Source of the DNA: Utricularia gibba
Lineage: Eukaryota > Streptophyta > Magnoliopsida > Lamiales > Lentibulariaceae
Assembly (NCBI GenBank): GCA_002189035.1
Contig: NEEC01000021.1
Location: 496,001 to 560,000 of the forward strand
Direction of reading: 5' to 3'
Length of the DNA stretch: 64,000 nucleotides
Part shown: positions 26,803 to 31,751 of the stretch, in pieces
How the letters are laid out: each line of letters opens with the position of its first letter
Numbering within the stretch: the first letter of the stretch is position 1
Made by a program: the position numbers and the translations under genes
Notes under the pieces: generated by a model
What the model was told of the DNA's origin: nothing
The model's database searches: none
What the model saw: only the letters and a program-made list of their open reading frames with translations

Positions 26803-29412
26803 TCCGGTCTACATGTCCGTCGGCGGCGGCTGGATTGGAAGGGAAGCCTGTGATTGTTTCCGTGTAATGCAATGTGTAGAACTGAAATTAGAGGCTTTTT
26901 TAACTGTCGGTAAAACTGAAAATGTAGTGAAGTAAATTTACCTCGGTCTGGGTTGGAGCCGGGAGCCCCAAAGACAACTGGGAGGGAACGGAGTCCAGCT
27001 CCGTGAGGCAAAGCTAGATTAAACGGCAACCCATTAAGCTAGAACTCTTGGGTTGTCGACCGAAGCTTTTTTTGGCAGAACATTAGTGTTTTTGAAAACT
27101 AATCTTACTAAGATTCTATCTAAATTTTCTTTAATAATGTATAGTATGATTATTTTTCATATTTAAACACTAGAATGGTTACTTTTCAAAATCCACTATT
27201 TTTCAAAATCATTCCACGGAAGCATCTAAATGCATATTTTACATATTTGACTAGAGTTAGTTTATCATTGATGATTGGGTAGGATCAAGGATGAATTAGT
27301 TGGTGAAATACATTATTTTATATTTTCAATTTATAAAATACATTTCTTTGAAAAGTTTTCATGTATTTCTGTTTTTTTAATCTTCATTTTATTTTCAATC
27401 GATATAAAATCATATTTATCTTATGATTTTTCAAAGTAATTTAATCAAAGTGAAATTAAGATATGATTTGATATTCAAACATCTATCATAAAAATAGCAT
27501 ATGTCTTTGATTGAGTCATTCACATGATTTTATCTAAGTGTCTATATATTTTTAATCGTTAATTATATTCCATAAATAAAACAGTATGTGGAAGATATAT
27601 TTTGCAAAACAAAAATGCAAAATGATGTATTTCATCAATTTAACCCAAAAACGTGTATTTTACAAATTAAAAATACAAAATGATATATTTCACAAATTTT
27701 ATACTACAATTTTTCTTCTTGGGTATGCCCATAAGAACTCACACCCATAAGAGGATTGAGAGAGAAGACCATGGTTCATGGTTGGGTAGCATAATAATAA
27801 AAGCTCTATAGCTCACTATCTAGGGAGGCTAAACAGGGTTGAGAGAAAATGATCACATTGCAAAATACTAATCTAGAACTAATTGGCTTGTATCATGAAT
27901 GGTGAGTACATTAGGTGTAATAGATATGATATATCTTGATTCTACATCATGTACCATAATAAAATATGACAGTTGTGCACATATATCAAGGAGGCATTGT
28001 ATATAAAACTATTGTACAAGTAGAAACAATGTAGAGAATCATTCAAGAAACTAATATTTGATTTACATTCAAACCCTTATATTGAATGATCCTCTCAAAT
28101 TCTTATCCTTCAGTCTCTTATTTTCTTTTATTCCAATAATGCAAGCAGCTACAAACAAATCTTTGTTTAATCACATCTTGGATTATATTTTTCTGTTATT
28201 AAATCCCAAATTGCTTTGAATCTATAAATCAAAGTAAGTTGACTAATGCACAAATTATAGTGTGTTGACATATGTTTTTTCATTTACTCCCATTGAGTGA
28301 CACTTATCTAATTATTATGTGAAGTTGATAGCAGCCTATTCAACCATGTAAAAAGTTTCTCATTCCAACACTATATAGTTTGCTTTGTTAAATTCTTGAA
28401 GTTTGGAGAAATATCACCATTGGAGGCATATAATTTAAAAAGGGGTGGAATTATAGATAAATAAATTTTGATTAGAAGACTCAAAAGAATTCTCATTACC
28501 TAATATGGTTAACTTTAGTATTATACATTTTTAATTATCTTCAAAAACAACAACAAATTTCAGAGACATGAAGCAGTAACTACGGTATCATAATTTGTGT
28601 AATAAAAAATGAGAAATATTTCACATTCTCTCTTTATAAACCAACAAATGCACATGAAATGTTAGCTTTTGTTAAATCACTCATGAATTTTTATTTAATG
28701 AGTAATGATATTTAATATTATGAATTATTTATTAAGATTATTTTCATTTCTTTATTTATAGTGAAATTAATATTCAAGTTCTAGATCTATCAATTTAAAT
28801 ATAATAAAACGTAAAAAGATACTATCCTTTTCATTGGTTCATTTAGAAAATTAGCTACAGGTACAATTTATTCTTCACTGTCAGTTAAAATTTTTTACAT
28901 TACAAATATCTACTTTTTTCACACACTAAAGAGGAGATGACCAAGTTTCTAATAGATCTCATTTTCACTACCGATTTCGACTTTTTTGTCAAAAATATCT
29001 GATTTGAATATGCTTTGTCCATACATTCCTCCAAGTTGCGTATGCGTGTATCCTATTTATGTTAAATAATTATATTTATTTACTAATTTCACATTTTATG
29101 GGTATGCGTATTTATTTTTTTTAGATTAATTTATTTTAAAAAATTAAGAAAAGTAATATGTTTGTAACGTGTATTAGTTTTGTTTTTTCTTTCGAATATG
29201 AACATATGCGATTAAGTAATTCGATTTGTTTTGAATTAATGTCAATCGGATATATTATTTTAATTTATTATTAATTTTTAATTTAATGAATAATAGTTGA
29301 TTATAATATCATACCTAAATAGGTCGATCTAGAACGTGAGGCGGTCTAATGTTAATTTTTTTTATTTTTTTAATTTGAATTTCTTTCTCAGGCCCAACTA
29401 GGGTTTCCTCCA
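26803..29412. other. AT-rich intergenic spacer with repeats
   Basis: Spacer between the MEI2-type and eIF5 genes. A GC-richer block at about 26936-27065 is probably the 3' UTR end of the MEI2-type gene or a fragment I cannot place. It contains an inverted-repeat element near 27298-27697. No supported gene. Confidence 0.5.
27298..27697. mobile_element. Putative MITE with imperfect ~46-bp terminal inverted repeats
   Basis: The left end TTGGTGAAATACATTATTTT is matched, inverted, by the right end around 27650-27697, at about 80% over 46 bases. A second partial copy of the right end lies just inside it, near 27603-27645. There is no coding capacity. The class is not assigned because target-site duplications are not clear. 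Confidence 0.5.
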
Positions 29413-29415
29413 CTC

Positions 29416-29425
29416 TTTATATATA
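29416..29425 (+). promoter_or_regulatory. TATA box of the eIF5 gene
   Basis: TTTATATATA precedes a pyrimidine-rich probable start region (about 29445-29465) in the right orientation for eIF5. The sequence fits a plant TATA box. Confidence 0.6.
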
Positions 29426-30147
29426 CCCATTGGTTCCGTGATCCAATCTCCCAGTTCCTCCATCAGCTCAGGTTCTGAAGCGAAATTTTCATCCTGCGGT
29501 CGTTTCCGATCTGCTTTCGTCTTCCGTATTGAGAGAGGTTCGGTATCGGCTGAATCATTTTCTGTTGTGAGTTGTGCGTTTTTTTTTAATCTGTGTATGA
29601 GTTTTCTGTGAATCGAATATATTTGATGGCGCTTGGTGTTCCAGTTTTCTGTGATTCTCTTACGGAGTCGAGTTCAGATCTGCGATAGGGTTTTGTTGAA
29701 TTAATGGAATATTTCTAATTGAATCCTATGATTGAAGAAAACGTGTGAATTTGGTCTTCTGTTGGCTTTCTTTTCTTCTACGCGACGGTGTATTCATAGG
29801 TTGTTGCTCTTGTGGATCTGAAGCTTTGGGTTTGCCGAATTGGATTTGTTTGCTGTCTGAAATGGATAGAGCTCGGATCTTCTATGTATTATGTCGGTTA
29901 TACGGAGGGGAGATTAAAACGCCTATTTTCCGTTTTGGTATTTTTAATTGAAAATATTTTTGACTATTGGAATGCGGTTTACATGGGTTGCTAGGTGTTT
30001 GGATTGAATTAGCTAATATGTTTTTGAGCTGATTGATTCGTGTTGATATAAATTATTCTGACTTTGAAGCTTTTCAGGTGTTGTCTAGCAGAGTTGCGGT
30101 GATACCCGTTAGCAACAGTGGAGGGTTTTAAGTTTGTAGCTTCTTTT
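29426..30147 (+). other. eIF5 5' leader with an untranslated intron
   Basis: The stretch from the probable start site to the uORF is T-rich and resembles a leader with an intron. A good acceptor (GAAGCTTTTCAG) ends at 30077. The donor is not certain; GTGAGTTGTG near 29567 is one candidate. Short open frames inside it are taken as intronic. Confidence 0.5.
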
Positions 30148-30384
30148 ATGTCTGAACGGGAATCCCACTTTTTATCATCGGTTGGGTTTCTTGTGGAGCA
30201 TTTTCCATCGCCCAGAATAAAGGGTAGACGTCCTGTTCCAGAAGTTGGCTGTATGCATCTGAGGTCTCGAGAAGGATTCAACATAAACTGTGAACACTAT
30301 CAGTTTATGCTTGGTTTACCGGCTGTGAAAAATTACCAAGAGACTGGGAAAGAACACTCTGTATTCATCTCATCTGTTTTCTGA
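30148..30384 (+). CDS. Upstream ORF of eIF5, 78 codons (likely conserved-peptide uORF)
   Basis: This is the first ATG after the leader acceptor at 30077. It encodes 78 residues beginning [11 protein letters not shown], with a central [11 protein letters not shown], and ending [12 protein letters not shown]. The stop is 23 bases before the eIF5 ATG, in a different frame. I recall that plant eIF5 (Arabidopsis At1g36730) is in the published set of conserved-peptide uORF families; that is memory, not a search. An ORF this long in a leader suggests selection on the peptide. The expected role is translational control of eIF5 itself, probably in cis. Confidence 0.65.
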
Positions 30385-30407
30385 TTAAAGTTATCCCCTT
30401 TCTGGAA

Positions 30408-31751
30408 ATGGCTTTGCAGAATATTGGTGCTGGTAACAAGGATGATGCCTTCTACAGGTATAAGATGCCTAGAATGATTACTAAAATTGAGGGTCGTGGG
30501 AATGGAATCAAGACCAATATAGTCAATATGGTTGAAATTGCCAAGGCTCTTGGCAGGCCTGCATCTTACACTACAAAGTATTTTGGCTGTGAGTTGGGAG
30601 CACAGTCGAAGTTTGATGAGAAGACTGGTACATCACATGTCAATGGCGCCCATGATACTGCTAAGCTTGCTGGACTCCTTGAAAACTTCATTAAGAAATT
30701 TGTCCAGTGCTATGGCTGTGGCAACCCTGAAACTGAAGTCATCATAACAAAATCCCAAGTGATCAATCTCAAGTGTGCAGCCTGTGGTTTCATCTCCGAA
30801 GTTGACATGAGGGACAAGTTGACGACATTCATTCTTAAAAACCCTCCAGAAGCAAAAAAGTCGTCCAAGGACAAGAAGGCAATGAGGAGGGCCGAGAAGG
30901 AGAGGCTGAAAGAAGGTGAGGCCGCTGATGAAGAGCAGAAGAAACTTAAGAAAGAGGCATCTAAGAAGAAAGTCTCAACTGGGAGCACCAAGGATGCAGT
31001 CACAAAAGCCGCAGGCAAGAAAAAATCTCAATCTGATGAGGAGCAATCTCCCACCGGAAGCCAAGTAGATGAGCAGGAAGTTTCTGTGGCTGCTGCGGAT
31101 GATAGTGATGATGAGGTGGAGTGGCAGACAGACATTTCCGCAGTCGCCGCGCAACGTGCCATCCAGGAGCAGCTCAATGCAGTCACAGCAAGTATGGTCA
31201 TGCTCTCAGCAAACGAGGACAAGAAAGAATCAGCAAAAACTTCTCCCCCAAGAGAAGAGAAACCCAAAGCTAGCGGAAACTCTAATGGAGTCCATGGTCC
31301 TGGTCTCATCCACTCAATAAAACAGTATCTGAAGAAAGGTACCCCGGTCACTCAACTGAAATCCTTCCTGGACTCTCTCCCCGGCACAGAGCAGGAGATC
31401 ATGGACGCCTTGTTGGAGGCCTTATTCGAGGGAGTCTCGAAAGGCTTCTCCAAAGAGGTTATGAAAAAGAAAAGCTACCTCGCAGCTGCGGTGCAGGAGG
31501 AGGGCTCACAGCCTCTCCTTCTCCACGCCATCGAGGCCTTCTGCACGAAAGCAGCAGCTCCGGAGGCAGCGAAGGAGGTGGCTCTGGTCCTGAAGTCGCT
31601 CTACGACGGCGACGTGCTCGAAGAGGAGTACATTGTGGAGTGGTACAAGAAAGGTTTGGTTGGCAGCAACAAGAGCTCTCCCATCTGGAAGAACACCAAG
31701 CCGTTCGTGGAGTGGCTCCAGAGCGCCGAATCTGAATCCGAAGAAGAGTAA
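30408..31751 (+). CDS. eIF5: Eukaryotic translation initiation factor 5
   Basis: GTPase-activating protein for eIF2 in start-codon selection, cytosolic, part of the 43S pre-initiation complex. It is a single coding exon of 447 residues, usual for plant eIF5. The N-terminal eIF2-beta-like domain starts [20 protein letters not shown], with the catalytic Arg region just before YRYKMPRM. The zinc-ribbon cysteines are in QCYGCGNPE and KCAACGF. A Lys/Glu-rich linker follows (about residues 145-215). The C-terminal W2/HEAT domain ends with [10 protein letters not shown] and acidic ESESEEE. A long uORF sits just upstream, so initiation at this ATG probably depends on leaky scanning or reinitiation. 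Call is very strong. Confidence 0.97.

Follow-up and report, generated by a model that had tools for sequence, protein, structure and literature searches.

Conserved upstream peptides of eIF5 genes

Among the conserved-peptide uORFs (CPuORFs) of plants there is one group that is associated with eIF5. This group, homology group 7 (HG7, also HG7a), was described in 2007 on basis of a comparison between Arabidopsis and rice (PMC2075485), and plant eIF5 was assigned to it in later work as well (PMC3426882). The HG7 peptides have a length of 57-105 amino acids, and the N-terminus is conserved whereas the C-terminus is not (Table 6 in PMC2075485). In Arabidopsis and rice the N-terminal part is rich in Ser, Thr and Tyr (6-7 of the first 22 residues) and the middle part in Lys and Arg (4 of 5-8 residues), while the mean Ka/Ks of the group was put at 0.43 by yn00 and at 0.89 by codeml (PMC2075485). 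The Arabidopsis member, CPuORF19 of At1g36730, is of class II, the class in which conservation involves the N-terminal part, the middle part or the whole length of the peptide, and the group has been conserved since the split between bryophytes and angiosperms (PMC9305500).

Mutation of the upstream AUG of CPuORF19 led to a higher reporter output, both in wheat germ extract and in planta; the output of the CPuORF19 reporter increased around 19-fold upon mannitol treatment and decreased upon heat, and a PARE peak at the stop codon was absent (PMC9305500). In addition, ribosomal mutations with an effect on the SAC51 uORF left CPuORF19 unaffected (PMC11913374).

A second line of work concerns initiation. 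Raised levels of eIF5 increase initiation at AUGs in a poor context, and many eIF5 mRNAs carry inhibitory uORFs that start with such an AUG (PMC5823381, PMC3426882). The autoregulation model is built on these poor-context uORFs (PMC5823381). For human eIF5, autoregulation by start-codon stringency was described by Loughran and colleagues, as cited in PMC3426882 and PMC5823381, and in 2012 a similar autoregulation was proposed for plants, drawing on the human work (PMC3426882).

Organization of the eIF5 leader in Utricularia gibba

The window analyzed here is a stretch of 64,000 nucleotides of the Utricularia gibba genome (contig NEEC01000021.1, positions 496,001 to 560,000). It contains an eIF5 gene, of which the exon boundaries were predicted from splice signals that are conserved between the two eIF5 copies of this genome (see below). 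The features are:

29390-29426, + strand: putative core promoter, as read from the sequence, with a GGCCCA motif, an AGGGTTT motif (telo-box) and a TATA box TTTATATATA
29455-29542, + strand: predicted leader exon 1, with an approximate start placed relative to the TATA box; 67% identity between the copies
29543-30077, + strand: predicted leader intron (GT...AG) of ~535 nt, whose donor (GGTAT) and acceptor (CAG) line up between the two copies
30078-30147, + strand: part of leader exon 2 that precedes the uORF, without ATG; 81% identity between the copies, gap-free
30148-30384, + strand: conserved-peptide uORF (HG7/CPuORF19-like) of 78 codons, with two more AUGs in its frame (30253 and 30307)
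30385-30407, + strand: spacer of 23 nt between the uORF stop and the eIF5 start; 40% identity between the two copies
30408-31751, + strand: eIF5 main ORF of 447 amino acids, complete and intronless

The motifs at 29390-29426 we take to function as they do in the promoters of plant translation genes. The elements AGGGTTTCCTCCA and CTTTATATATA, which represent the AGGGTTT and TATA parts, are retained in the second eIF5 copy despite diverged surroundings, and we infer the transcript start from the TATA box at 29417-29426, which is conserved in both copies. The leader intron is only 55% identical between the copies, with gaps in 93 of 548 alignment columns. The identity of the main ORF product follows from a Pfam search, in which the eIF-5_eIF-2B domain (PF01873, 3.8e-34) and the W2 domain (PF02020, 1e-21) were recovered.

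A sequence-only reading of the window had pointed to an uninterrupted ORF of 78 codons, starting with the first ATG of the last leader exon and ending 23 bases before the eIF5 start codon. The feature list bears this out: translation of 30148-30384 yields 78 residues followed by TGA, without internal stops. The predicted leader exon 1 contains no ATG, and within the spliced leader as predicted no AUG precedes 30148. The distance between the two start codons is 260 nt (2 mod 3), and the uORF can therefore be ruled out as an N-terminal extension of eIF5. An extension of the uORF itself from an upstream non-AUG start seems unlikely: the open stretch is short and the codon differences between the copies appear, by eye, mostly non-synonymous.

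All three ATGs that precede eIF5 in leader exon 2 (30148, 30253 and 30307) share the uORF frame. Ribosomes that miss the first of these AUGs would thus still use the same frame and the same stop codon.

U residues at positions -6 to -1 are broadly unfavourable for initiation (PMC5823381). The context of the first uORF AUG, uucuuuuAUGuc (uucuuuuAUGu), is identical in both copies, and the two internal AUGs have a U at -3 and a C at +4, so that in the window copy U at -3 and the lack of G at +4 are common to the three uORF AUGs. The eIF5 AUG, in contrast, is preceded by a purine at -3 (G or A) and followed by G at +4 (ggaaAUGg or aaaaAUGg across the two copies). Judged by these residues, the uORF start context is very poor, close to the worst possible, and the eIF5 start context is strong. 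Such an arrangement, in which one or more poor-context upstream AUGs precede a good-context eIF5 AUG, is shared with the inhibitory eIF5 uORFs of animals; the likeness concerns initiation only, and no peptide homology is claimed.

The second eIF5 gene and the age of the duplication

Searching the whole genome (100.1 Mb in 516 contigs) we found two eIF5 genes, the one in the window and one on a second contig (C1, 2326435-2327784; 88% identical to the eIF5 in the window), and both carry the uORF. The second uORF (C1, 2326173-2326409) likewise consists of 78 codons, with the same start, stop and register. The two peptides are 74% identical, without indels or stops, and the three in-frame AUGs occur at matching positions. 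No further copies of the uORF peptide were recovered genome-wide, and each of the two lies upstream of eIF5. The expectation that a similar peptide would precede other eIF5 genes is thus borne out for the only other eIF5 of this genome, and within that scope.

The two eIF5 genes are embedded in a collinear block (window 17062-39135 versus contig C1 2310584-2334286), whose same-strand stretches lie on the window side at 17.1 kb, 29.3-31.8 kb, 35.9-36.2 kb and 38.2-39.1 kb. They comprise eIF5, a gene for a NIPA-type magnesium transporter (38.2-39.1 kb) and two other stretches. On basis of this collinearity the genes can be considered segmental or whole-genome duplicates; U. gibba, with a published genome of ~100 Mb, is known for two recent whole-genome duplications. 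Considering the synonymous divergence between the eIF5 copies (about 0.4-0.6) and the low identity of the leader introns, the duplication is not young.

Selection on the upstream peptide

The presence of a long ORF is by itself not decisive. An ATG-initiated ORF of at least 78 codons was found in 1.0% of the dinucleotide-shuffled versions of leader exon 2, a frequency that taken alone is suggestive, and weak, evidence against a chance ORF. The comparison between the two copies is more informative, although all selection estimates stem from this one sequence pair. For the whole uORF, dN was 0.13 and dS 0.40-0.51, and three methods yielded a dN/dS of 0.26-0.33. A codon bootstrap gave 0.28, with a 95% interval of 0.14-0.54 and P(omega>=1) = 0.0002, and the difference between non-synonymous and synonymous changes was significant (P = 0.0003). 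The sequence-only reading had proposed Ka/Ks as a check, and the ratio, at about 0.28, is clearly below 1. On this pair, then, the uORF peptide is under purifying selection and, being selected, it is presumably translated.

The pattern of the changes points in the same direction. When the same 41 substitutions were placed randomly in a neutral simulation, the frame was lost in 92% of the trials, and 20 amino-acid changes were observed versus 27.2 expected under random placement (P = 0.004). Not a single indel occurs within the 237 nt of the uORF, while the leader intron has many. Of the six frames, only that of the uORF is free of stops in both copies. An overlapping or antisense frame, including an antisense ORF of 91 amino acids at 30009-30284, was rejected as the selected entity, since the other frames carry stops in the uORF region.

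Conserved and variable parts of the uORF

The differences between the copies are unevenly distributed, and the uORF can be divided in two parts:

30148-30306, + strand: codons 1-53, conserved part; 91% nucleotide identity, pN 0.065, pS 0.19
30307-30384, + strand: codons 54-78, variable C-terminal part; 67% nucleotide identity, pN 0.24, pS 0.68

The contrast in pN is significant (P = 0.0012). Nevertheless, codons 54-78 are still constrained (non-synonymous versus synonymous, P = 0.0018), and both copies end with SVF followed by the stop codon.

The synonymous sites show a contrast as well. The pS of codons 1-53 is lower than that of codons 54-78 (P = 0.0008) and lower than that of the eIF5 coding region (0.40; Fisher P = 0.012), in which none of the 53-codon windows has a pS as low. 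Also the 69 nt that precede the upstream AUG are gap-free and 81% identical. These data could reflect a constraint at the RNA level that is added to the peptide constraint, in the form of an RNA element or a codon-specific pausing signal. We regard this as unlikely; if true, it would constitute a hitherto undescribed feature of the HG7 uORF. The same low pS would be expected from gene conversion between the copies or from chance, and on basis of one sequence pair the three are inseparable. RNA structure was rejected as the cause of the low pS, as leader exon 2 together with codons 1-53 folds no better than shuffled sequences (z +0.95 and +0.38); an Rfam search yielded no match. Overlapping reading frames were likewise discarded as the cause, given that neither copy has an alternative stop-free frame.

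Probable membership in HG7

The sequence-only reading placed an eIF5 family among the plant CPuORFs and considered the uORF a potentially ancient case; both notions agree with the literature, in the form of HG7 and its bryophyte-angiosperm conservation (PMC2075485, PMC3426882, PMC9305500). Judged against the published description of the group, rather than by alignment with the Arabidopsis and rice peptides, the U. gibba uORF shares the location in the eIF5 leader (in both eIF5 genes), the length (78 amino acids in both copies), the conservation of the N-terminal and middle parts together with a variable C-terminus, and the purifying selection. The middle is also rich in Lys and Arg: residues 23-28 read RIKGRR in the window copy (4 of 6) and RIKDKH in the second copy (3 of 6). 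The first 22 residues include five Ser, Thr or Tyr residues in both U. gibba copies versus 6-7 in the description, a descriptive count that stems from Arabidopsis and rice, and the number of eIF5 uORF loci is two in U. gibba versus one in Arabidopsis. Neither amounts to an established difference from the group. The peptide had no relatives among viral contigs, genome contigs and plasmids, in sets that are devoid of plant sequences, and a search for strings of the peptide in the full text of papers gave no match. Given these correspondences, 30148-30384 almost certainly represents the known upstream peptide of plant eIF5, HG7/CPuORF19. Both the element and its interpretation are therefore already known, and not new.

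Proposed mechanism and alternative explanations

Ribosomes that initiate at the weak upstream AUG would synthesize the peptide of 78 residues and terminate at its stop codon, 23 nt short of the eIF5 AUG. These ribosomes would mostly fail to reinitiate and be lost to eIF5, as the stop codon is too close and the ORF too long for efficient reinitiation. eIF5 would then be made by leaky scanning, that is, by ribosomes that bypass the upstream AUGs. Since eIF5 relaxes start-codon stringency, high levels of the factor should raise initiation at the uORF and thereby lower eIF5 synthesis, which would constitute a homeostatic feedback. The very poor context of the upstream AUG is consistent with such autoregulation in plants. 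A combination of ribosome loss, leaky scanning and an eIF5-responsive balance between the two is the most likely mode of action, in which the steps after initiation are those that we infer. The reading as a whole, with the uORF as the HG7/CPuORF19 element and repression and feedback as its proposed mode of action, has our high confidence.

The selection on the peptide makes an additional, peptide-dependent component likely, and the conserved N-terminal and middle part presumably adds a sequence-dependent control during elongation. The class I CPuORFs with C-terminal stalling (e.g. HG17 and the SAC51 family) resemble the eIF5 element in being conserved-peptide uORFs with a repressive effect on the main ORF. 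In the U. gibba uORF, however, variation is concentrated in the C-terminal third, and no stall signature was seen at the stop codon of the Arabidopsis HG7 member (PMC9305500). With the C-terminal third being the least conserved, an effect at an earlier point of elongation is more probable than a stall at the stop codon.

The uORF could also act solely as a weak-context barrier that operates independently of the peptide, through leaky scanning and eIF5 feedback and possibly nonsense-mediated decay. The start context, very poor in both copies, fits such a barrier, the human eIF5 uORF model as cited works without a peptide sequence, and CPuORF mRNAs are often targets of nonsense-mediated decay. 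But a pure barrier needs no preserved peptide, and the selection on the amino acids, which extends into the variable C-terminal third, and the absence of indels disfavour this explanation, which we consider possible but rather doubtful.

Far less probable is a role of the peptide in trans, as a stable microprotein, with the regulation of eIF5 being secondary. The peptide is long for a plant uORF, and it is the N-terminal and middle parts that are conserved, not a potential stall site close to the stop codon. It has, however, no Pfam match, both genomic copies are tied to eIF5, and the Arabidopsis counterpart works in cis on a heterologous reporter (PMC9305500). Finally, a chance open frame that is shared because of a young duplication is close to negligible despite the 1% of shuffled leaders and the single pair compared, considering the age of the duplication, the fit to the HG7 description and the upper bound of dN/dS, which already refutes it unless the pair is misleading.

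Implications

The eIF5 uORF of U. gibba does not open a new type of mechanism. It does confirm, on basis of raw sequence, that a very compact plant genome has kept a regulatory peptide known from Arabidopsis and rice, and has done so in both eIF5 duplicates. As a reason for the conservation of the peptide, its retention in the submerged U. gibba fits the control of eIF5 dosage better than a response to drought.
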